Source: Parabacteroides gordonii MS-1 = DSM 23371 (GTDB lineage: Bacteria; Bacteroidota; Bacteroidia; Bacteroidales; Tannerellaceae). Taken from it: a stretch of 64,000 nucleotides of DNA. A program made the translations under genes and the position numbers. Numbering within the stretch: the first letter of the stretch is position 1; each line of letters begins with the position of its first letter. Below the pieces are notes generated by a model. That model was not told the DNA's origin. It ran no database searches and worked only from the letters and a program-made list of their open reading frames with translations. The DNA lies in assembly GCF_000969825.1 (NCBI RefSeq), contig NZ_KQ033919.1, positions 3,484,749-3,548,748 of the forward strand, given 5' to 3'. Of the stretch, positions 29,887 to 61,161 are shown one piece after another.

Positions 29887-32800
29887 CTATCCGTTATCGG
29901 GAGTCTGCTTTTTCCTGTATTCCACCGGTGTCGTATCGAACTGTGCCTTGAAGCAGCGGGTGAAGTAGCGGGGGGAGCCGAAGCCCAGCAAGTCTGAGAT
30001 CTCCGCGATTTGGAGATCCTGGCGGCTTATTAACAGGGTGGCTGCCCGTTTCAGTTTGCAGTTGAGGACGAAGTCGTTCGGGGTCATTCCGGTCAGCGCT
30101 TTGAATTTGGCGTACAGCGAGCTGCGGCTTAGTCCCAATTCTTTTGCCAGCGTATTCATATCGAACTCCATATTGTTGAGGTTCTCCTCGATGATCTTGT
30201 TGACCGTATCCATGAATTTCTGGTCGATCGGGTTGCTGGCCAGCGATTGTGTATCGAAATCCCTTTGTTCGTTGAACTTCTTTTGCAGGATGATGCGGTT
30301 ACGTACCAGGTTGTTGCAACGGGCAAGCAACACCTTTGCATTGAAAGGCTTACTGATATAATCGTCCGCACCGCGTTGCAACCCTTCTATACTTTGCTCT
30401 GCAGAACCGAGTGCCGTGAGCAGGATCACCGGAATATGGCAGATATCGAAATCGTTTTTGATCTTCAGGCACATCTCCGTCCCCGACATTTCCGGCATCA
30501 TAATGTCGCTAACGATAATATCCGGCTTCTCGCTTCTCGCCTTTTCCAATCCCTCTTTGCCGTTCCGCGCCAACAGGACATTGTAGACCGGAGAGAAAAG
30601 CGAGTTCAGTATCTGAAGCAATTCCTCATTATCGTCGACCAGTAGGACGGTATAAGTGGCACCGGTTTCGGCCAGCGACAGTTCGGAAGTATCTTCGGGA
30701 AGGTCGTTCATAATTGTCTCCGGCTGTATTTCGTTGCGTATCATTTCATTCTCCGGCTCGACGAACTTGCATTCATCCGCCTTGAAGTGCGCCCGGCCTT
30801 TGGGTAGGCGGACGATGAATATACTTCCGTATCCCGGCGTACTTTCCACCTGTATTTTACCATGATGCAGCTCCACGATGCTTTTGGTCAGTGAGAGGCC
30901 GATGCCCGTGCTGGGTTGCGACAGTCCCGGAGTGTTGTTGCCTGCCTGGTAAAAACGGTCGAATATCTTGTCGATATCCTCTTTACTGATACCGATCCCG
31001 TTGTCGATGATTTTGACAATGATCGTTTGTTCGTCTTCCTCGACCACCATTTCGATGTCGGCACCCGGCTTGGAATATTTGAATGCGTTCGACAGCAGGT
31101 TGTAAAAGACCTTTTGCATCTGCTTGGGGTCGAACCAGCACCTGATATCTTCCTGCTGCGTACTGAAATGATACGTCACCGAACGGCCGGATGCATATTC
31201 ATAGAAAGACAGATAGATCTCTTTCAGGAACGGGATGATATTCTGTTCGCATACTTTCAGTTTCACATGGCCTTGCTCCAGTTTGCGGAAGTCGAGCAAC
31301 TCGCTGATCAGTGTCCGCATGTTGTGCGTGTTCCTGTATATCTTCAATAGCTTGTTGTAGGTCGATGGTGCCAGCGAACTGCTTTGCAATAACAATTCGA
31401 TTTGCGATATGATCAGCGTAAGCGGTGTCCGGAACTCATGCGAGATATTGGAGAAGAACTGCAATTTTGCCTGGTTCAGTTCTTCGATCCTGTCTTTCTC
31501 CTTCCGTTCGAACTCCAGCGAGGTACGGAGAAGCAACTGCGATTGTTTGAAACGGAAGAAACCGTAGATCAGTCCGCCGCCAACCAATACATACAACAGG
31601 TAGAACAGCGGAGTGGCGTAGAACGGCGAATGGATAACGATGCCCATCCGGATCGTTTGCGGTTCGACCTTGGGATCATATTGCTTTTCGCGTACGGTCA
31701 GCGTATATTTTCCGGGGTTGAGGTTGGTGTATTGGATGCTGTTATCGCTATTGCCGATCCATTTGTCGTCGAACCCTTCCAGCATATATTCGTAGGCCGT
31801 CTCTTTCAATGTGTTGATATAGTTGTTCGAGTTGAAAGTCACGATCAGGTTGTTCTGGTTGTGGTTCAGGTCTATTTCAGGGGTGTAGGACAAGGCCTCG
31901 GACAATATATGTGTCCGGTCGCCCGGCCGTACTATCTCGTTGTTGATATACAGATCGGAGAAGTATAGCCGGTAATCTTTGGCCGGGCGAAACAAATCCT
32001 GCTCGAAGAATGTGCTGACTCCGTCTATGCCGCCTACGAATATCTCGCCGTTCCTGCAAACCAGCAGGCCGCACCCTTTATTGATACCCGACACAGGAAG
32101 AGCCGTTCCCAGCTCCACCACCTTAAACTGCTCCTGCACAGGATCGAAGAAAGAGAGCCCTTTGTCTCCGGAAATGATCAGGTAACCTTGCGTCGACTCT
32201 TTTATGTCATAGCAATAATCGCTTAGTATCAGGCTGTTGTCGGTCGTATACCCTTTGAACGTATTATTCTTTTCCTCGAATTTGTATAAACCCGACCCTT
32301 GTGTCCCGAGGAATATACGTCCTTCCTTGTCTTCAAAAATAGAAGATATCGGTTGTTTGCCGAGCCCGTCCTCACCACAACGGTACACGCGCAGGTCTTG
32401 CTCGTTGTTCATTTTGATTCTGTAAAGAGTGTATCCGGTAGTGATCCAGATATAATCCTGCGAGTCTATCAGGAAACAATGATTTCCATAAGACTTTCCG
32501 CTGCTGAATATCGGGCGTATCTGCTCGGTGTCGAGATCCATCATCGCATTGCCCCATTGGGTCATGAATACCAGGTACTTGTCTTTCCAGATACGCATCT
32601 GGTTGATCCGGTCGCCCGCCTTTACCGCATACGACGGGTCTTCGAAATAAGGATTGCGGAACCGCTTTTGGGAAAGGTCGAAGATGGATAATCCCCCGGT
32701 ATGCGTCCCGATGTAAAGCTTATTCCGCTTTTCGCTGTAAGCAATATCTTTCAGGTTATTATGGGCGATGGAATTCTTGTTGGGATCGGCCATGAAATAG

Positions 32801-33912
32801 GTGAAGGTTTTTGTTTTCCTGTCGAAGAGGTTGAGACCGCCCCCTTCGGTGCAAATCCAGACGTTTCCGTCTTTGTCTTCCGTCATATGCCCGACAAAAG
32901 GGAAACTGAGACAATCCTTTCTTGAACTGTCGGCCGTGTAGACGGTAAACAAGTCCATTTCCGGGTTGAAGTAATGCACGCCCCCATAGTAAGTCCCCAG
33001 CCAGATACTTCCCTGATGATCTTTATAAACGGGGAATACGGACGAATGCGCCAGGCTGCCGGGCAGAAGGTCGCGGGTGTAGACCTGGAAACTGTCGTCA
33101 TGCGGATTATATTTGTTGAGCCCGGTGAACGTTCCGATCCACAGGTTCCCGAAATTATCTTCAACGATCCCTCTCACCTGGTTATTGGAAATATTATCCG
33201 GTTTCTGTGGATCATAGCGGTAACGTTTGAAACTGCCGGACGGTTCTCTTTTGTAAAGCCCGTTCATACGCGCCGAGATCCAAAGGTTTGCGTGAGAGTC
33301 TTCAAACAGGGCGTAGATATCTTCATTCGGAATGATGCAGGTGGGAAGTGTATCTCCTTCCTGCATATATAATCCGCTGTTCGTCCCGATCCAGCACCGT
33401 TTCTGGCTGTCTACCGTGATGCAGGTGGCATGTTGATAGGTGTATTCGAGCTTGAAACGGAATTGCAGTTCTCCGGTGTCATTCTCCCGGGTAAAGATAG
33501 AGTCGCCGACGCCTACCCAAAGTTGCCCGTCGCCGAAAGCCACTGCGTTGACCTTCGACTTCTTCAAGCAGGAGAACTCCTGGGAATGAAGATTGTAGCA
33601 TACCAGCGAGTTGTCCGAATTGAAATAAATATTCCCCCGGTTATCTCCGGTGATAAAATCGATACTGTTTCCAACCGGAAATTCATTCCCGTTCTCATTC
33701 GCCAGAGTCGGCTTGTATGCGGTCACATGAACGCCGTCGAAAACACTCAGCCCTTCTTCCGTCCCGAACCACATCCGTCCCAGTTCGTCCTGATAAATAG
33801 ACATGACCGATAGTTGCGAGAGCCCCTCTTTTGTCCCGATATGCTTAAAGTAGATAGGGAAAGCGTAAGACAGGGTGTTCAGGAAGACGAAAAGGATGAT
33901 TAGTTTTCTCAT
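29887..33912 (-). CDS. Hybrid two-component system regulator (HTCS) of PUL2
   Basis: A one-protein sensor and transcription factor of about 1341 residues. The ATG at 33912 gives a signal peptide (MRKLIILFVFLNTLSYA), so the longer frame upstream is not used. Order: periplasmic two-propeller sensor made of Reg_prop repeats (about 20-680, recurring WFGT, LWIG and IWLGT motifs), Y_Y_Y domain (about 690-755), transmembrane helix (about 765-790), HisKA with NISHEFRTPLTLI (His about 822), HATPase_c with FYNLLSNAFKYS (about 940) and GIGLSLTKSIVELHHG, REC domain (VLLVDDNEELL, phospho-acceptor Asp in VSDIMMPEMSG, about 1136), and a C-terminal AraC-type helix-turn-helix (about 1235-1335). It should sense an oligosaccharide released from the PUL2 glycan and activate the locus. 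Confidence 0.95.
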   Translation of the reverse strand: MRKLIILFVFLNTLSYAFPIYFKHIGTKEGLSQLSVMSIYQDELGRMWFGTEEGLSVFDGVHVTAYKPTLANENGNEFPVGNSIDFITGDNRGNIYFNSDNSLVCYNLHSQEFSCLKKSKVNAVAFGDGQLWVGVGDSIFTRENDTGELQFRFKLEYTYQHATCITVDSQKRCWIGTNSGLYMQEGDTLPTCIIPNEDIYALFEDSHANLWISARMNGLYKREPSGSFKRYRYDPQKPDNISNNQVRGIVEDNFGNLWIGTFTGLNKYNPHDDSFQVYTRDLLPGSLAHSSVFPVYKDHQGSIWLGTYYGGVHYFNPEMDLFTVYTADSSRKDCLSFPFVGHMTEDKDGNVWICTEGGGLNLFDRKTKTFTYFMADPNKNSIAHNNLKDIAYSEKRNKLYIGTHTGGLSIFDLSQKRFRNPYFEDPSYAVKAGDRINQMRIWKDKYLVFMTQWGNAMMDLDTEQIRPIFSSGKSYGNHCFLIDSQDYIWITTGYTLYRIKMNNEQDLRVYRCGEDGLGKQPISSIFEDKEGRIFLGTQGSGLYKFEEKNNTFKGYTTDNSLILSDYCYDIKESTQGYLIISGDKGLSFFDPVQEQFKVVELGTALPVSGINKGCGLLVCRNGEIFVGGIDGVSTFFEQDLFRPAKDYRLYFSDLYINNEIVRPGDRTHILSEALSYTPEIDLNHNQNNLIVTFNSNNYINTLKETAYEYMLEGFDDKWIGNSDNSIQYTNLNPGKYTLTVREKQYDPKVEPQTIRMGIVIHSPFYATPLFYLLYVLVGGGLIYGFFRFKQSQLLLRTSLEFERKEKDRIEELNQAKLQFFSNISHEFRTPLTLIISQIELLLQSSSLAPSTYNKLLKIYRNTHNMRTLISELLDFRKLEQGHVKLKVCEQNIIPFLKEIYLSFYEYASGRSVTYHFSTQQEDIRCWFDPKQMQKVFYNLLSNAFKYSKPGADIEMVVEEDEQTIIVKIIDNGIGISKEDIDKIFDRFYQAGNNTPGLSQPSTGIGLSLTKSIVELHHGKIQVESTPGYGSIFIVRLPKGRAHFKADECKFVEPENEMIRNEIQPETIMNDLPEDTSELSLAETGATYTVLLVDDNEELLQILNSLFSPVYNVLLARNGKEGLEKARSEKPDIIVSDIMMPEMSGTEMCLKIKNDFDICHIPVILLTALGSAEQSIEGLQRGADDYISKPFNAKVLLARCNNLVRNRIILQKKFNEQRDFDTQSLASNPIDQKFMDTVNKIIEENLNNMEFDMNTLAKELGLSRSSLYAKFKALTGMTPNDFVLNCKLKRAATLLISRQDLQIAEISDLLGFGSPRYFTRCFKAQFDTTPVEYRKKQTPDNG

Positions 33913-33987
33913 GGCTTTTACACTATTTGATGGCGAAGATAATGATAAATTCCGGAAATATTTAGTGTAGAAGCTCATATAAATAGG

Positions 33988-33995
33988 TATCTTTG
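33988..33995 (+). promoter_or_regulatory. -7 promoter box for the 34028 gene
   Basis: TATCTTTG, 33 bases before the ATG. A weaker box with one mismatch (TATCTTCG) faces the HTCS gene at 33934-33941 on the minus strand. Confidence 0.65.
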
Positions 33996-34027
33996 TCCTA
34001 TAAGCAACCAATAAACTTATACGCATT

Positions 34028-34468
34028 ATGAAACCAGATTTCAACTATAACGATTTTCCTGCTTCTTTTGCCAATTGCTTCCGCGAGCAATGTCCGCATG
34101 GTGACAAATGTTTACGCCGCCAGATGGCTCTCCATGTCCCGAAGGATCGTGGAGGAATATACATTCTTAACCCGGGTTACCTTGATGCGCTCGGTGATAA
34201 AGAGTGCCCGTTCTTTGTACTGGATGAACCCCAAAAGTTTGCCAAAGGTATCACCTGGCTGTACGATGACCTACCATTGCGAAAAGCGGAAGCAATCAAA
34301 TCGCAGATCATAGCCCACCTGGGACGCAGCACCTATTACCGTTGTAAGCAGAAGCGACGCCTGATCAGACCGAAAGAGCAGGCCTGTATCAAAAAACTCT
34401 TTCTTGCCCACGGCATTTCTACCGAACCTCGATATGACGAGTACCAGGAGTATTACGATCTCGGATAG
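34028..34468 (+). CDS. Small conserved protein with N-terminal cysteines (DUF6078-like)
   Basis: A 146-residue protein without signal peptide or membrane segment. The N-terminal part holds three cysteines in NCFREQCPHGDKCLRR, plus a fourth later (DKECPF), which could bind a metal such as zinc. The middle has a basic, helical part (YYRCKQKRRLIRPKEQA) compatible with nucleic-acid contact. I recall similar proteins from Bacteroides under the name DUF6078; their function is unknown. It is transcribed divergently from the HTCS gene, but such proteins occur in many places, so a role in PUL2 is not implied. A hairpin follows. Confidence 0.7.
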   Translation: MKPDFNYNDFPASFANCFREQCPHGDKCLRRQMALHVPKDRGGIYILNPGYLDALGDKECPFFVLDEPQKFAKGITWLYDDLPLRKAEAIKSQIIAHLGRSTYYRCKQKRRLIRPKEQACIKKLFLAHGISTEPRYDEYQEYYDLG

Positions 34469-34495
34469 GTATTGATTTACAGATTGTTATTGACT

Positions 34496-34524
34496 TGGCG
34501 GCATTTCCCTGGGAGATGCCGCCA
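34496..34524. terminator. GC-rich hairpin after the 34028 gene
   Basis: TGGCGGCAT (34496-34504) pairs perfectly with ATGCCGCCA (34516-34524). No T run follows on the + strand. Confidence 0.55.
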
Positions 34525-34589
34525 TTCTCATATATTGTGATACTGCGGTGACACAATATATGCCATTGCAGTAACACAATATATGCTAA
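34521..34589. repeat. 23-bp-period dyad array
   Basis: Two direct copies of TGCrGTrACACAATATATGC begin at 34544 and 34567 (period 23). The preceding CATATATTGTG (34529-34539) is the inverted form of CACAATATATG, so the block folds on itself. Same architecture as at 18383, 44091 and 57230 but different sequence. Confidence 0.65.
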
Positions 34590-34719
34590 TAAAATGATGT
34601 GGAAGATGAAGCAGAAGCGCCTTCGGAAAGTCCTTAACAAGGGTAAATATAGCCCATTTTAGCTCTATTAACAATTGTTTCTGCAAAAACCTTGCTTTTT
34701 TTCGTCCAGGTAACTAATA

Positions 34720-34747
34720 ATATAATGTACGCGTGTGTACATTATAT
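34720..34747. repeat. AT-rich perfect inverted repeat
   Basis: ATATAATGTAC and GTACATTATAT (11 bp each) flank the six bases GCGTGT. It stands alone between the array and the invertible-promoter element. It could be an operator or a cruciform site; no function is visible. Confidence 0.55.
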
Positions 34748-34836
34748 ATAAGGCACTATATTCCTACCTTTCGGGGCAGGTCGTCAAAATGACTATATAT
34801 CTATTGATTTATAATACTTAGGGTGGGAAAAACGAC

Positions 34837-35041
34837 TGACTAGAAAAATCGTTCCTTTTTTCTAGTCATCAAAATTACTACATTCTTTTGAACTGGCAAT
34901 AGCTTCCCCAAGATTTTTTCCTTTTCTATATTCTTTCTTATCAACACGATAGCGAATTAAGTACGAAATTCTCTCTTTCCGGTATGAAATCAAAGCGCCC
35001 CATAAAAAATGACTAGAAAAAAGGAACGTTTTAGCTAGTCA
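34837..35041. promoter_or_regulatory. Candidate invertible promoter of the first large surface protein
   Basis: Two 32-bp elements, 34837-34868 and 35010-35041, both start TGACTAG and end CTAGTCA and are inverted copies of each other (29 of 32 positions match, the last 19 perfectly). The 141 bases between carry a minus-strand promoter: CAAAATTA at 34870-34877 (TAATTTTG) with CAAT at 34897-34900 (ATTG) 19 bases away. It points away from the gene at 35120. Inversion would place the start of transcription inside the right element, about 90-100 bases before the ATG. The paralogous gene at 57673 has the same arrangement. I read this as an invertible promoter in the OFF state. Confidence 0.72.
34870..34900 (-). 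promoter_or_regulatory. Promoter pointing away from the surface-protein gene
   Basis: ATTG-N19-TAATTTTG on the minus strand. Spacing and both boxes are conserved in the second copy (57423-57453), although the bases between differ, which shows selection on the promoter. Confidence 0.65.
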
Positions 35042-35119
35042 TTACTACTAGCTGGCCTATCGGGAATAGGCTGTGAACAGGTTTTTATAACACTATTATT
35101 AATATTAAATTTATTGATT

Positions 35120-38100
35120 ATGAACAAAAAGTTTTCTACACTTGTAGCTAGCTTGTTATTTGCATCAGCTTTTTCAGCATTCGCAGGTACAGCGGCTCCA
35201 ATGTTTACAGCTCCTAACGGAGTAGAAACTCGTGCGCTTGTACCTAACACAGGTGCAGAAAAAGTGACCAGTGATGCTGGCCTTGTTGCTGCTGCTGGTC
35301 ATACAGCAGTAAATGTTTTGAAAGGTTTTACTAACAACGCTCGTTTGCAGGTACTTTTGGAAACAGGTGCTTTGACTACAGCGAATGCTGCTCAAAATTA
35401 TTTTGTATCATCTGCTGCTTTGATTGGTGCAGAAGCAGATTATGCTACTGCAACTACTCCTGCTACTATGGCTCCTTTCTATTTTACGCTGAATGGGGAT
35501 CAATTAGTAGGTGCTAATGGAACTGTTCTGTCGTTGGATGGCGTTCAGAATTTTGATATCGTTCCATTGGCAAAGACAGACGGTACAGTTACTTCCTTCT
35601 TTGGATTGAAAGCTATATCTTCTGATGCTGCTAAGAATGGTAAGTTTATCAAAATTATAGCTGATGGAACTATCACAGCAGATGCCGCGGATGTAAATAG
35701 TGCTGCTATTTTCGCATCAGTAGAAACAGCTTATACAGCTGCTGCTAAAGGTGAGGATCTGAATAAAGACTTGAATGATGGCTTTAACTTATCAGTGACT
35801 TTCGGTACTTCAACTCTTAAAGGCGCGGAATTGTTCGCTAACAAGTTGACTGCAATGGAATGGGATGGTGGTTCTTCTGCATTTATACCGGCAGCAGGGG
35901 CAACAACTGAATTCTTTTTGAAAAACAAAGATGGCAAATACATTGTTTTTGATGCAGCGTTGAATAGCTCAAATGCTATTAAAGGAGGCTTTAAGTTAGT
36001 TAGCGCAACTGACGCAGCTGCTATCCAGGCTGGAACTACAGCTAAATTCAAAATCAACGTAGCTGATAACGGAGCAAAAACAGTAGAAGTAACTGTTGAT
36101 AATGGCAAACGTTTATATGTTAATGTATCAAACGGAACTAACGTATTAACAGCTCTTGATGTTTTGAATGGTGCTGCTGCTAACTGGGCTAGTACAGCTT
36201 TAGGTGCAACAAACGCAGTTGACTTCCATAAGTTCCTGACAGGCCAGTTCTACAAAGTTAGCTTTGTAAAGAAAGCTGTAGGTGAAACAGAAGCTGCTGC
36301 TGCTTACAAGGTTAATGGCATTTTAGGTCTGAGATTTAATACAGCTGCAAATGTTGCTGATTTCGTAAAGGCTGCTGATGTTGTTGCAGAAGATCCTTCT
36401 ACTATGTGGGCTCCAAGCATTGTTGGTGGAGAGTTGGTTTTGACAAACCGTGAAAATACAACGGCTGCAGTGCAGGTTAAAATTGCATCTTTACGTGAAG
36501 TAAGTGCTGGTGTTTATGAAGTAGGTGCAGTAACTGCAACTAATTCAGGTCTTATAGCTGGTGAACAGATCAAGATCACTCCAGTAGCTTCAGTTTCAAA
36601 AACAGACGGTTACCAAGTATATGCAGACAACGCTTTGATCAACTCTGCGTTTTATCTGGGTCAGTCTCGTCGCAATGCAGACGGTGACGTTCCTGCTTAT
36701 TGGGCAGAAAATCACGGCACACACCAGATCGGTGCAACAGTAAACCAGGAGGAAGCTACTCAATGGAATGTACAATTAGTTAAGAAGGATGCTGCTGATT
36801 ATAACAAACAGATCGACTCTGTATTAGTTATCAGTAACTTGGTCTCTTATAACGCAACAACAGGTGTTACAACAACTACTCCGGACACATTGGCAGTTCT
36901 TCCGTATGTATTCCAGAACAGAGGTAACCGTGAATATGTAATTCTGAACAATGAAACAAATCAGGAATATTACATCTGTGACAAAGATAATAAGAATGTT
37001 GCTCGCAATGCTAAAATCTTCGCATTGAAGAAAAGACCGGGTAATACATATAACTATGTAACCTTGGCTGTAACAAATACTTATACAGATGGTAAAGTAC
37101 AACCTGTTACTGCTATCAATGGTGACATGAAAGTATACTTGAAGAACAGTGCAAACAAAGGTACATGGGAAAATGTTGAAACTTATTCAGATGATGCCAA
37201 CTCTCTGATGGTTGTTGAGCCTATCGATGCTCCGGAATACCGTAAGGTAGTTGCTGCATGGGGTGACACAGTAAGAATTTACCGTGAAGAATATCCTACA
37301 GAAGTATTGTTCGAAAAAGCAGATGCTAAATCTGTTGTAGATGGCAAAACTTTGAGCTTCCTGAATGTAAATAACAGTGTAACTGGTGCTAATCCTGCTC
37401 TGTTCGTTGATACAGCTTATGTAAACCGTACAGTAAATGGTGTTGCTAACACTTGCTACCAGTATCTGTTGGCTGTAAACGTAGATAAAGAAAATTCAGT
37501 TTACTGTCCTTACAATCCTGAACATAATACAGATGCTTGGAGAGAAGAACATGGTGGCCCTTGCGCTGACGCAAAAGAAAATCCGGCTGTAGTAAAAGGT
37601 CGCTTCCTGATCAACCTGATTGACACTGCTTTTGCTTACAAAGCTGATCACCTGCACAACAACCCATATATCAATATGGTTGAAGCAGACGAAAACAAGG
37701 CTAAGTTGTCATTCGTAGAAGGTATCCATACAAACGATACATTGTATATTACTCGCAAGGGTGGTGAAGTTGTTAAATTAGGTATGACTGATCCAGCATT
37801 CAATGTTGCTAAGTTCGCTTTCCGTTACGTAGATAACGAAGCTGGTTCATTCAAGATCCAGACTCAGTACAAAGAATATAGTGCTGCAGACAAAGACGCA
37901 TTCGATGCATCTGCAAATAACGAAGGTTACCTGCGTTGGGTAAACGGTACAGTTGTTGTAACAAACAGCTATACTAACGGTGAAGTATTCAACATGGAAG
38001 AAAACTTCAAGGGTAATCCTGTAGCAAACGAAGATATCACTACTTCTTCTGTAAAAGTAACAACAACAGAAGGTAAAGTGATTATCGCCGGTGCACAAGG

Positions 38101-38245
38101 CAAGAAAGTTACTATCAGTAACGTACTTGGCCAGACTATTGCTAACGCAGTTCTTTCTTCTGACAAAGCTGAAATCTCTACTCCTTCAGGTGTAGTAATC
38201 GTAGCCGTAGAAGGTGAAGCTGCTGTAAAAGCAATCGTAAAATAA
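35120..38245 (+). CDS. Large secreted surface protein (S-layer-like family, DUF6383-type C-terminus), copy 1
   Basis: About 1041 residues. ATG 35120 is chosen over a TTG two codons earlier; it starts a signal peptide (MNKKFSTLVASLLFASAFSA). There are few aromatic clusters and no enzyme motifs; the protein is rich in Ala, Thr, Asn and Val, consistent with repeated beta domains. It ends in an 80-residue module (KGNPVANEDITTSSVKVTT to the end at AVKAIVK) that resembles T9SS-type C-terminal sorting/beta-sandwich tails in pattern (VTISNVLGQ) and that I recall as DUF6383 of Parabacteroides. The paralogue at 57673 shares the C-terminal 40 percent almost exactly while the N-terminal parts differ. Family resemblance and the invertible-looking promoter suggest a phase-variable, probably glycosylated surface-layer protein. 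The gene is AT-rich and uses a narrow codon set, as in very highly expressed genes. Confidence 0.72.
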   Translation: MNKKFSTLVASLLFASAFSAFAGTAAPMFTAPNGVETRALVPNTGAEKVTSDAGLVAAAGHTAVNVLKGFTNNARLQVLLETGALTTANAAQNYFVSSAALIGAEADYATATTPATMAPFYFTLNGDQLVGANGTVLSLDGVQNFDIVPLAKTDGTVTSFFGLKAISSDAAKNGKFIKIIADGTITADAADVNSAAIFASVETAYTAAAKGEDLNKDLNDGFNLSVTFGTSTLKGAELFANKLTAMEWDGGSSAFIPAAGATTEFFLKNKDGKYIVFDAALNSSNAIKGGFKLVSATDAAAIQAGTTAKFKINVADNGAKTVEVTVDNGKRLYVNVSNGTNVLTALDVLNGAAANWASTALGATNAVDFHKFLTGQFYKVSFVKKAVGETEAAAAYKVNGILGLRFNTAANVADFVKAADVVAEDPSTMWAPSIVGGELVLTNRENTTAAVQVKIASLREVSAGVYEVGAVTATNSGLIAGEQIKITPVASVSKTDGYQVYADNALINSAFYLGQSRRNADGDVPAYWAENHGTHQIGATVNQEEATQWNVQLVKKDAADYNKQIDSVLVISNLVSYNATTGVTTTTPDTLAVLPYVFQNRGNREYVILNNETNQEYYICDKDNKNVARNAKIFALKKRPGNTYNYVTLAVTNTYTDGKVQPVTAINGDMKVYLKNSANKGTWENVETYSDDANSLMVVEPIDAPEYRKVVAAWGDTVRIYREEYPTEVLFEKADAKSVVDGKTLSFLNVNNSVTGANPALFVDTAYVNRTVNGVANTCYQYLLAVNVDKENSVYCPYNPEHNTDAWREEHGGPCADAKENPAVVKGRFLINLIDTAFAYKADHLHNNPYINMVEADENKAKLSFVEGIHTNDTLYITRKGGEVVKLGMTDPAFNVAKFAFRYVDNEAGSFKIQTQYKEYSAADKDAFDASANNEGYLRWVNGTVVVTNSYTNGEVFNMEENFKGNPVANEDITTSSVKVTTTEGKVIIAGAQGKKVTISNVLGQTIANAVLSSDKAEISTPSGVVIVAVEGEAAVKAIVK

Positions 38246-57390: not shown

Positions 57391-57595
57391 TGACTAAAAA
57401 AAAGGATCGTTTTTTCTCGTCACAAAGGTACTTCATCATTTTGAATTACCAATCATTTCTTCCAATTTTTTTTCTTCTACTATCTTCTTTCTTATCAAGA
57501 GAATAGCAAAGCGAGTACGAAAATACTGCTTTTTGTTATCAAATCAAAATGCCTTCCAAGAAATGACTAATTAAAAGGATCGTTTTAGCTAGTCA
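57391..57595. promoter_or_regulatory. Candidate invertible promoter of the second large surface protein
   Basis: Two 32-bp elements (57391-57422 and 57564-57595), each starting TGACTA and ending GTCA, flank 141 bases, the same size as in copy 1. The minus-strand promoter is again ATTG-N19-TAnnTTTG (CAAAGGTA at 57423-57430, CAAT at 57450-57453), pointing away from the gene at 57673. In contrast to copy 1, the element cores here (GGATCG) lie in direct orientation, though the inner GATC is palindromic. The sequence between the elements and the leader after them align with copy 1. Confidence 0.68.
57423..57453 (-). promoter_or_regulatory. Promoter pointing away from the second surface-protein gene
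   Basis: ATTG-N19-TACCTTTG on the minus strand, with the same position and spacing as at 34870-34900. Confidence 0.65.
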
Positions 57596-57672: not shown

Positions 57673-60600
57673 ATGAACAAAAAGTTTTCTACGTTAGTGG
57701 CTGTCCTTCTGGCAGCCGGTGCTTGGACGACGCTGGACGCTAGAGTGATTGAAATCACTGCGCCGAAGGTGAATGGTTCTTATTTGATCGGTTCTGATGT
57801 CACTGAGGGTGATGGAGACAATGGAAAGGTAGCTACTTTATTAAAAGTTGCCGATGGAACGTCTGCTGCGGCTACTGCTGCGGCAGTTGAAAGCTATGGA
57901 AGTGAATGGACACTGGAAGCTGTACCCGCAGCTGATTTTGCAGGCGTTGATGTTACAGATTGGTTTTATTTGAAGGCTGGAGGTAAATATTTAATAGCTT
58001 CTACTACTGCAAATCAATTTAGTGTAGAAGCTGCTAAAACTTACGCTGTTCCGTTTGTAATTAAAAACGGTAAATTTGTTGTAGCTAAGGATGTTACAAA
58101 TACTGGTAAAACAGAAAAAGACAAAGAACTTACGCTGGTAGCTTCTGGTGTAACTACTGCAACAATTAATGGTACAGCACTTGCTTTCGGCCAATACACC
58201 GCAGACGAAAACATTCAGGCAAATGGTTCTACTTTAACAAAAGTAACAAAGGTTGCTGATGATAATTACTATTTCGTTGCAGCAACGAATGGTAAATTAT
58301 TGTATTTTAGTACTGAAGATGCAACAACTGTAAGTGCTAATGGATCTGCTGGTATAACCGCTGCAAACATCGACCAATATCTTTGGAAGCCGGTAAGAAG
58401 CGCAAGCGGTGAATACTCTTTCGAAAACAAGGCGTTTGATGGTAAGTTCGCTAACATCGGTAAAACAAAATCATTTAATTCCAATGCTGAGTATAACGGT
58501 GGTGTAGGTCTCTATTTAGGATCTGCAACTGTTGATGCTGATTTTACTGCTAAAGGTGCTGCTGATGCTCCTATCGCTTTTGGTTTCTACAAAGCATTAG
58601 ATTTCCCTATTACTGCTGCCGCTTTGAATAACCGTACTGGCAATGTTTTCGACCTGACTTTCAAAGTAGCTAAAGATAGCGATAAGGAAATTGTAGGTGC
58701 TGAAGCATTTGCAGGCTCATTGATAGCTGTTGATGCGAATGGAAATAAGATCACTACAGGTCTAGCCACTAAGTTCCAAATCAAATCAGGAGATAACTAT
58801 ATCGTATTAGTTGTTAATGATAAGAAGGATGAAAATAAGAATGTATTTAAAACGGTTACAGCAGATGAACTGGCTGACGATACAGACGGTAAGTACTATT
58901 CTTGGTTCGAATTCTCTGCAAGTACAAGCACTAAATCAACAGATGTTGTTTCTACAATCAAAGTTGGTAAAAATGCAAGCTTAGATGATGCAAGAACTAT
59001 CATCCTTGAAGATAACCTGAGCGAAGATGTAGCTTATTTGAGAACGAGAATAGCTCCGGAAGAGTCTGCAACATATCCGTATATCACGCTGACTGCTTCC
59101 AATATGGTTGACTACAAAGACTTGTTAGGTAAGTTCATGAGTATCTCTTTCTTGACAGATAAAGCGGAAGAAAAGGTAGATCCTACAAGCGTTATCTACA
59201 AGAAGAACGGTATCCTGTCAACAGTAGATTACGATGCTGACGGAACAGCAACAGCTGATTATGTAAACAAGAACTCTGTTCTAAGCAATACTCCGGAAGT
59301 ACAGTGGGCTATTACTGATGTAAATTCTGATAAAACATTTACTTTGACAAACCGTGAAAGTGGTAAGACGCTGACAAATGTTAGCTTCCGTCAGACTGGC
59401 AAGGACAATGTTTACAAGTTTGAAACTGTAACAGCTCCTGTTGGTATGGTTAACGATACCGTTGAAGTGAAATTGTTTGCTAACGACGATATTACAAAAT
59501 TCGACGGCTTTAGAACTGCTACTCCGAACGAATTGAGAAATCAGAAGTTCCATATCGGACAGTATCACAATGAAACACAAAATGCAGTAGGTTACTGGGC
59601 AGAAAATCATCAGACTAACGGTACTCATCAGCTGGGTGTTGTTGCTGACGAAGATGCAGCTGGTATCTGGAATCTGCGTTTGGATCAGAAAGTAAACAAA
59701 GCTGGTGAAGAAATCAATGAAGTTGATACCGTATTCATCACAACTACATTCTATACTGAAGATGCAAAGGGTAATAAGGTTACAGATCCTAAAAAACAAC
59801 TTAAGTCTGTATTGGCTGTACTTCCTTACGAAATTCAGAACAGAGCAAATCTTGAATATGTGAAGTTCTTGTCAGGAAACAATCTGAACTACTATGCATG
59901 TAATGAAGAAGCTGATACCAGAACTGGTTTCCGTTTTGCATTGAAAGCTAAACCGAATGGTTATAGCATTGTTACTTTGCCGAACCGTGACTGGACATTA
60001 GGTTCAGGTAAACCTTCTAAAGCTGCAACAGCATTAGGTAATAAGAAAATCGACGTAGCTAACAGCGTTCAGTGGGGTGCTTTGAAACAAAGAGGCCTGT
60101 ATGAAGTGAGCGATAACTCTATCATGGTGGTAACAGAACTTGGTGCTCCTGAATACCGCAAGGTTGTAAAAGAATGGGGTGACACAGTAAGAATCTATCG
60201 TGATGAATATCCTACAGAAGTATTGTTCGAAAAACGTGACGCTAAGTCAATTGTGGATAAAGATACTTTGAGCTTCTTGAATGTAAACAACAGTGTAACC
60301 GGTGCAAACCCTGCATTGTTTGTCGATACAGCTTATGTGAATCGTGTTGATGCCGACGGTGTTGCAAACACTTGCTACCAGTATCTGTTGGCGGTAAATG
60401 TTGATAAGACGCTTAATACATACTGTCCGGACGATGCGGAACACAACGATCCAGAATGGATTAAGGAACATGGTGTTTGTCCTCACGCTATCAAGACTCC
60501 GCTTGTTAAGGGTCGCTTCCTGATCAACTTGGTTGATACTGCATTTGCTTACAAACAGAAACACCTGCACAACAACCCGTATGTAAATATGGTAGAGGCA

Positions 60601-61161
60601 GGTCAGGACTATAAGGCTAAGTTGTCATTCGTAGAAGGTATTCACGTTGGTGACACACTGTATCTTACTCGCAAGGGTGGCGAAGCTGTTAAGTTGGCTA
60701 TGGACTCTTCTGCATTCAATGTGGCTAAGTTTGCCTTCCGTTATGTAAATAACCAAGAAGGTTCATTTAAGATCCAGACTCGGTACAAAGAATATTCAGC
60801 TACATCGAAAGAAGCATTTGACGAATCAGCAAACGATGAAGGTTACCTGCGTTGGATCAACGGTACAATTGTTGTGACTAACAGCTATCTGAATGGTGAA
60901 ACATTCAACATGGAAGAAAACTTCAAGGGTAATCCTGTAGCAAACGAAGATATCACTACTTCTTCTGTAAAAGTAACAACAACAGAAGGTAAAGTGATCA
61001 TCGCCGGTGCACAGGGCAAGAAAGTTACTATCAGTAACGTACTTGGTCAGACTGTAGCTAACGCAGTACTTTCTTCTGACAAGGCTGAAATCGCTACTCC
61101 TTCAGGTGTAGTAATCGTAGCCGTAGAAGGTGAAGCCGCTGTAAAGGCAATCGTAAAATAA
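57673..61161 (+). CDS. Large secreted surface protein (S-layer-like family, DUF6383-type C-terminus), copy 2
   Basis: About 1162 residues; ATG 57673 starts a signal peptide (MNKKFSTLVAVLLAAGAWTT). It shares the first ten residues and nearly all of the last 400 with the protein at 35120 (for example EYPTEVLFEK, SFLNVNNSVTGANPALFVDT, and the last 80 residues), but the N-terminal 700 residues are divergent and 120 residues longer. No enzyme motif is found. The last part (VTISNVLGQTVANAVLSSDK) resembles a C-terminal sorting or anchoring beta-sandwich. The pattern of a constant C-terminus, variable exposed part and similar leader with invertible-looking promoter fits a family of alternately expressed surface-layer proteins. 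Confidence 0.72.
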   Translation: MNKKFSTLVAVLLAAGAWTTLDARVIEITAPKVNGSYLIGSDVTEGDGDNGKVATLLKVADGTSAAATAAAVESYGSEWTLEAVPAADFAGVDVTDWFYLKAGGKYLIASTTANQFSVEAAKTYAVPFVIKNGKFVVAKDVTNTGKTEKDKELTLVASGVTTATINGTALAFGQYTADENIQANGSTLTKVTKVADDNYYFVAATNGKLLYFSTEDATTVSANGSAGITAANIDQYLWKPVRSASGEYSFENKAFDGKFANIGKTKSFNSNAEYNGGVGLYLGSATVDADFTAKGAADAPIAFGFYKALDFPITAAALNNRTGNVFDLTFKVAKDSDKEIVGAEAFAGSLIAVDANGNKITTGLATKFQIKSGDNYIVLVVNDKKDENKNVFKTVTADELADDTDGKYYSWFEFSASTSTKSTDVVSTIKVGKNASLDDARTIILEDNLSEDVAYLRTRIAPEESATYPYITLTASNMVDYKDLLGKFMSISFLTDKAEEKVDPTSVIYKKNGILSTVDYDADGTATADYVNKNSVLSNTPEVQWAITDVNSDKTFTLTNRESGKTLTNVSFRQTGKDNVYKFETVTAPVGMVNDTVEVKLFANDDITKFDGFRTATPNELRNQKFHIGQYHNETQNAVGYWAENHQTNGTHQLGVVADEDAAGIWNLRLDQKVNKAGEEINEVDTVFITTTFYTEDAKGNKVTDPKKQLKSVLAVLPYEIQNRANLEYVKFLSGNNLNYYACNEEADTRTGFRFALKAKPNGYSIVTLPNRDWTLGSGKPSKAATALGNKKIDVANSVQWGALKQRGLYEVSDNSIMVVTELGAPEYRKVVKEWGDTVRIYRDEYPTEVLFEKRDAKSIVDKDTLSFLNVNNSVTGANPALFVDTAYVNRVDADGVANTCYQYLLAVNVDKTLNTYCPDDAEHNDPEWIKEHGVCPHAIKTPLVKGRFLINLVDTAFAYKQKHLHNNPYVNMVEAGQDYKAKLSFVEGIHVGDTLYLTRKGGEAVKLAMDSSAFNVAKFAFRYVNNQEGSFKIQTRYKEYSATSKEAFDESANDEGYLRWINGTIVVTNSYLNGETFNMEENFKGNPVANEDITTSSVKVTTTEGKVIIAGAQGKKVTISNVLGQTVANAVLSSDKAEIATPSGVVIVAVEGEAAVKAIVK

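Follow-up and report, generated by a model that had tools for sequence, protein, structure and literature searches.

Surface-protein genes in the window

The DNA analyzed here is a 64-kb stretch (G000:C1:3484749-3548748, hereafter the window) from a genome of 6.79 Mb in 8 contigs. An FBPase encoded nearby is 97% identical to a P. goldsteinii record and 95% identical to P. faecis, in a search that may omit the records nearest the source genome, and the window DNA is 84-86% identical to that of the P. goldsteinii/P. faecis group. The source, a gut bacterium of the genus Parabacteroides, is taken to be a further species in this group. The main gene of interest occupies 35120-38245 on the plus strand and encodes a protein of 1041 aa, which starts with MNKKFSTLVA and ends in a DUF6383 domain (PF19910; 38018-38239, plus strand, E 4.1e-29). 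Structure comparison placed the predicted fold of DUF6383 nearest to type 9 secretion C-terminal domains, with the top three chains by Z all being such domains, and the product is predicted to carry the C-terminal sorting domain of type 9 secretion cargo. The model TIGR04183 scored 16.3 bits against this product, under its cut-off of 23, while the SprA translocon is encoded in the genome (E 1.5e-185). The N-terminus of the protein is signal-like as judged by eye, and searches with the whole protein returned 0 matches in NCBIfam at 0.001 and 0 matches among solved structures by sequence at E <= 1. A second gene at 57673-61161, also on the plus strand, encodes a protein of 1162 aa that is 49% identical to the first; both carry DUF6383, which agrees with the initial annotation in assigning the two genes to one surface-protein family. 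At the corresponding place in P. faecis, a switch precedes a gene for a 1279-aa protein that is only 25% identical to the 1041-aa protein of the window, and it seems from these alignments that the coding parts are replaced while the switch ahead of them is conserved. An Rfam search of the 64-kb window found nothing beyond three tRNAs.

Anatomy of the segment at 34837-35041

Analysis of the region upstream of gene 35120 revealed two inverted 32-bp arms, at 34837-34868 and 35010-35041, which enclose an inner part of 141 bp (34869-35009). The arms pair at 29/32 positions (91% when extended to 33 bp), exact to the base as the initial annotation had described them. When 34600-35200 was shuffled 100 times in two-base blocks, the top score of any 32-mer inverted repeat with this spacing averaged 19.5 and never exceeded 22, so the pairing of the arms is not a matter of chance. 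Each arm is in addition a near-palindrome on its own, organized as 15+2+15. The left recombination site has a central TT at 34852-34853 and agrees with the consensus at 28/30 half-site positions, while the right site, which agrees at 27/30, has AA at its centre (35025-35026), the complement of the TT on the left.

The inner part contains a promoter of the strict pattern on the minus strand, as claimed previously, with the -7 box TAATTTTG at 34870-34877 and, 19 nt from it, the -33 element ATTG at 34897-34900, as read from the sequence. The arrangement ATTG-N19-TAATTTTG conforms to the Bacteroides -7 consensus TAnnTTTG given in PMC4747536. This promoter points leftward, away from gene 35120, and the switch is OFF in the assembly, as had been proposed. 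The further proposal that gene 35120 lacks a visible promoter of its own also held, with 0 matches to plus-strand TTG-N17..22-TAnnTTTG in the 420 bp upstream of the start. A sigma-70-type scan of 34000-35400 yielded a single plus-strand match, at 34239, and the scan gave 3 matches versus 3.1 in shuffles, which is no excess. The second switch of the window has the same layout, with a left site at 57391-57422 (27/30 half-site positions), a minus-strand promoter at 57423-57452 pointing away from gene 57673, and a right site at 57564-57595 (24/30), and it is likewise OFF.

Outside the invertible segment, the palindrome TGTACGCGTGTGTACA at 34726-34741 has the form TGTAC-N-GTACA followed by AT-rich sequence, and it is present 5' of many family members. 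In the genus survey described below, an element of this type was found at 45/97 site-flanked loci, 8/18 site-less ON loci, 1/5 site-less OFF loci, and 0/37 site-less loci without an orientation call, as compared with 0.9% of 5,000 background segments. A role as recombination enhancer was rejected because the palindrome also precedes site-less ON genes. Its strict form, the only one searched there, had 0 matches close to the sites of eight loci (within L099-L107) where sites of the same kind lie near other genes of the source genome.

Orientation of the switches across Parabacteroides

To describe the family, the source genome was analyzed together with the genus. PF19910 has 38 matches in the source genome, 27 of them strong, and 20 of these 27 strong DUF6383 genes are preceded by a switch, all 20 being OFF. 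Among the 24 genes with MN[KR]K[FL]S starts, 19 have paired sites and are OFF, as is L084, which has another start; of the other five, L077 is site-less with its promoter facing the gene, L085 has no promoter call, and L061, L065, and L079 have a promoter about 406 bp upstream. Sites of the same kind also occur in this genome near genes for DUF6261 proteins (L100, L104), a List_Bact_rpt protein (L099), and an HU/DUF4469 protein (L103, promoter facing the gene), and at a capsule-type locus (L107).

The genus survey covered 38 genomes, of which 31, varying in completeness, have a row, and outside the source genome it sampled MN[KR]K[FL]S starts only, so that members with other starts are missing. 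Start matches numbered 175 (114 + 61), of which 5 are not among the 170 that were read; 12 of the 170 had too little upstream sequence (under 400 bp) to be classified, which leaves 158 readable loci. With the threshold for paired sites set at 99.9% of 1,580 shuffles, 97 loci have paired sites, comprising 90 OFF (two of them, L067 and L193, called from a sequence landmark instead of the strict promoter), 6 ON, and 1 without a call. A strict promoter lies between the sites in 94/97 loci, pointing away from the gene in 88 and toward it in 6. The ON fraction of 6/96 departs from an even split with a binomial p of 2.5e-20, a value to be read with the non-independence of related loci in mind. Among the 18 site-less loci called ON are L204 (script label BOTH, with a second match near) and L342, and some of the 38 site-less rows without a call, such as L226, L310, L315, L319, and L328, clearly belong to different genes that also match the start pattern. 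In the genome G004, which has 11 PF19910 genes, 4/5 sampled loci have paired sites.

Comparison of the ON and OFF loci revealed that inversion occurs at sister loci of the same design. Between L230 (G037, ON) and L203 (G012, OFF), the inside is reversed, with 93% identity over 195 bp, while the flanks match directly and the change-over falls within the sites. Within a single genome (G017), the inner parts of L347 (ON) and L349 (OFF) are identical in reverse at 145/145 positions, with flanks about 96% identical in the direct orientation. For all 6 ON loci, the inner part fits the three most flank-similar OFF loci better when reversed; the match is strong in four and weak in L346 and L321, which are without a close OFF partner. 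For the locus of the window, no inverted copy was found among its closest match in G037 (L220) and the syntenic loci L108 (P. faecis) and L109 (a Parabacteroides MAG), and its inner part is identical to that of L220 at 133/141 positions in the same direction. The claim that the promoter is invertible is accordingly borne out for loci of the same design, of which both orientations were found, and is carried over to 34837-35041 itself by analogy: we infer that this segment, too, inverts.

The likely invertase

Serine recombinases act on sites with a 2-bp overlap, whereas switches of tyrosine recombinases of the Tsr type have a matching overlap of 6-8 bp between their sites. In the genus survey, the two sites of a pair are complementary at the central 2 bp in 96/97 cases (26.5 expected; maximum 43 in 10,000 re-pairings), an agreement slightly favored by the site finder, which partly weights pair complementarity. 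Over the central 6 bp, agreement drops to 81/97 pairs; the corresponding numbers in the source genome are 19/19 and 15/19. Agreement at the central 2 bp that lessens over 6 bp is what one expects of a serine recombinase, and this 2-bp rule links the switch to one recombinase. The core test also led us to abandon an alternative site model of 13+6+13, in which the core spans 6 bp. The sole pair of the 97 that breaks the 2-bp rule, L240 (G012:C11:119470), also has no promoter found inside.

The source genome encodes, far from the window, a master DNA invertase, Mpi (G000:C1:4436362-4436964; 200 aa), which scores 322.8 bits against a cut-off of 272 for NF009949. Mpi exceeds this cut-off in 31/38 genus genomes; matches are weaker or partial in G021, G027, and G029, and G024 has one DUF6383 match and no Mpi match. 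PF19910 (E <= 1e-15) and PF00239 occur in the same 35/38 genomes and are both absent from the same three, which are possibly close kin and two of which are 84% and 75% complete. Judged by its sequence family and by the sites, Mpi, a serine recombinase, is the probable enzyme behind the inversion. In the source genome, a lone near-consensus site (L367:5024-5055; 25/30, maximum 18 in 200 shuffles) lies about 75 bp ahead of mpi, suggesting possible binding of Mpi to its own regulatory region; among 21 mpi loci, an upstream site stands clearly above shuffles in the source genome only, four others reaching 19/30 in the corresponding position and the rest lying near background.

We also considered that a Tsr-type tyrosine recombinase, rather than Mpi, inverts the segment. 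The source genome has 66 tyrosine recombinase matches, and PMC8400631 reports switches of this type at 11/13 capsule loci of P. distasonis, where a tyrosine recombinase gene precedes the UpxY homologue. Against this stand the near-perfect match at the central 2 bp together with the 16/97 pairs that differ within the central 6 bp, a site centre that is the same as at the B. fragilis polysaccharide loci, and the joint absence of DUF6383 genes and serine recombinases from three genomes. On this evidence, a tyrosine recombinase is unlikely to be the invertase.

Proposed mechanism of switching

Taken together, we propose, with a probability of about 0.85, that 34837-35041 is a two-position promoter switch flipped by Mpi, now OFF, whose flipping would lead to production of the surface protein. 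The Mpi-family serine recombinase would bind both palindromic 32-bp sites, cleave each at its two middle bases (TT/AA), and turn the approximately 173 bp between the cuts. In the present orientation, the promoter, if active as presumed, would fire leftward and leave gene 35120 silent. Once inverted, the segment would carry TAATTTTG at 35001-35008 and TTG at 34979-34981, both on the plus strand; the leader would measure about 105 nt, and a surface-exported protein, probably an S-layer-like coat, would be switched on.

One could instead regard the locus as a fossil, once invertible and now fixed OFF. The arms mismatch at 3/32 positions, all 20 switches of the source genome are OFF, and so are the three loci compared with the window. 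Set against this, the two sites agree with the consensus at 28 and 27 of 30 positions, the same as those of L230, which is ON; neither the promoter boxes nor the central dinucleotides are disrupted, and the inner part has stayed close to that of L220. Nor is an OFF bias a sign of decay, given that in B. thetaiotaomicron about 1/1,000 cells express BT1927 (PMC12548429). We therefore regard a fossil switch as distinctly improbable. It is still harder to maintain that the present orientation serves the gene on the left and that the segment chooses between two genes. A two-component regulator gene does lie on the minus strand at 29887-34044, but between it and the segment lie a DUF6078 gene on the plus strand (34028-34468) and inverted repeats (34496-34590), and at the 20 switch loci of the source genome the nearest left ORFs (>=120 aa) lie on the plus strand in 11 cases and on the minus strand in 9 and end at least 384 bp before the start; a two-way switch is thus very unlikely. 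Finally, a fixed divergent promoter whose repeats act as hairpins or protein-binding sites, a view to which the hairpin-capable arms and the terminator-like left arm on the minus strand lend themselves, is rejected for the class by the sister loci that face opposite ways, with alignments that reverse within the sites, and its probability for this locus is close to nil.

Family members without recombination sites

Comparison of the site-less siblings revealed a common leader of 376-387 nt from promoter to start in 16 of them, three in the source genome outside the window (L061:2708-3083, L065:2999-3374, and L079:3094-3471) and 13 elsewhere. In the proposed leader fold, both sides change while pairing is preserved in 82 cells; shuffles give 24 and slid controls 5-18. 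The count of further pair types is unremarkable. The same strand also takes part in an alternative hairpin of terminator type, with a T run, whose covariation is weaker (10 cells versus 3.3). The leader looks like an uncatalogued attenuator. In Rfam, 13 loci gave 0 matches above the gathering score, and another search gave one chance-level match on the opposite strand. A model of the leader core has matches in 33/38 Parabacteroides genomes including the training loci, with up to 34 per genome and rough E-values, and the weaker matches precede other kinds of genes as judged by eye. The model has 0 matches in the 64-kb window.

In 17 genomes, exactly one sampled site-less gene each has its promoter facing the gene, 130-156 bp upstream (after removal of L342); in the source genome, this member is L077 (G000:C1:3681263). 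Repeats flanking these 17 promoters reach 13-15/20 at best, at most 2 above the best of six shuffles each, and exceed it in L257, L332, and L325. The site-less promoter-facing genes of G000, G012, and G037 are counterparts, with an upstream region common to all three. Such a gene is absent from the sample in G021 and G025, among others, and in G020 and G015, whose members are mostly leader-type. At the removed locus L342 (G010:C40:2517), the promoter also faces the gene and is flanked by another repeat, a perfect inverted one of 20 nt that may be the site of another invertase.

The presence of one site-less promoter-facing gene in each of 17 genomes, read from promoter direction, suggests a tentative model to which we give slightly less than even odds. 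In each genome, one coat gene of the family would be fixed ON, its promoter being fixed by the absence of recombination sites; most others would be biased OFF through Mpi, and a third group would be gated by the leader RNA. If this holds, a coat change would be a rare departure from a fixed default instead of a free draw among equals, and the default coat gene of a cell would be predictable. The state of the coat probably influences how the cell interacts with phages and the host.

Comparison with known switches

Phase-variable S-layer glycoproteins are known in P. distasonis (Fletcher et al. 2007, PNAS, as cited in PMC8400631 and PMC2943079), and PMC2943079 lists DgpA and DgpC as S-layer glycoproteins, which are presumably layer-forming. 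The initial annotation had assigned the genes of the window to a phase-variable family of the P. distasonis type. A surface-protein family with two members in the window is borne out, and the genus is the same; the species, however, is not P. distasonis, and 20 switches lie here in one genome. Among the literature titles searched, with most subscription papers outside the scope of the search, none concerned coat switches of the P. goldsteinii/P. faecis species group.

In B. thetaiotaomicron, an invertible promoter likewise lies ahead of the S-layer protein gene BT1927, as stated in PMC12548429, whereas the S-layer operons of this species have a different repeat, CCGTTACCTABVRAGTAAC, according to PMC12118408. 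In B. fragilis, Mpi inverts the polysaccharide promoters (PMC4747536), and the switches described here resemble that system in the serine invertase of the same NCBI family, in promoter inversion, and in the CG-NN-CG site centre. Such sites, for example TGTTTCAAAAAACG-NN-CGTCTTTTGAAACA, are present at 6/6 fetched loci that we reached in two B. fragilis genomes with the published PSA primer (2 mismatches). A NusG-like protein is encoded downstream in 3/3 loci tested there and UpxZ in one; at L372, the frame tested lies upstream of the site and is uninformative for the downstream gene. The two systems differ in the outer half-sites, TGTTTCAAA in B. fragilis versus TGACTAGAA in Parabacteroides, and in what lies behind the switch, which is a capsule operon with NusG-like and UpxZ genes in the former and a single surface-protein gene here. 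The kind of switch is already known from the P. distasonis Dgp and B. fragilis Mpi systems, and the set described here adds further members to it; the source genome carries the largest set of such switches among the sampled genomes and extends the classic switch.
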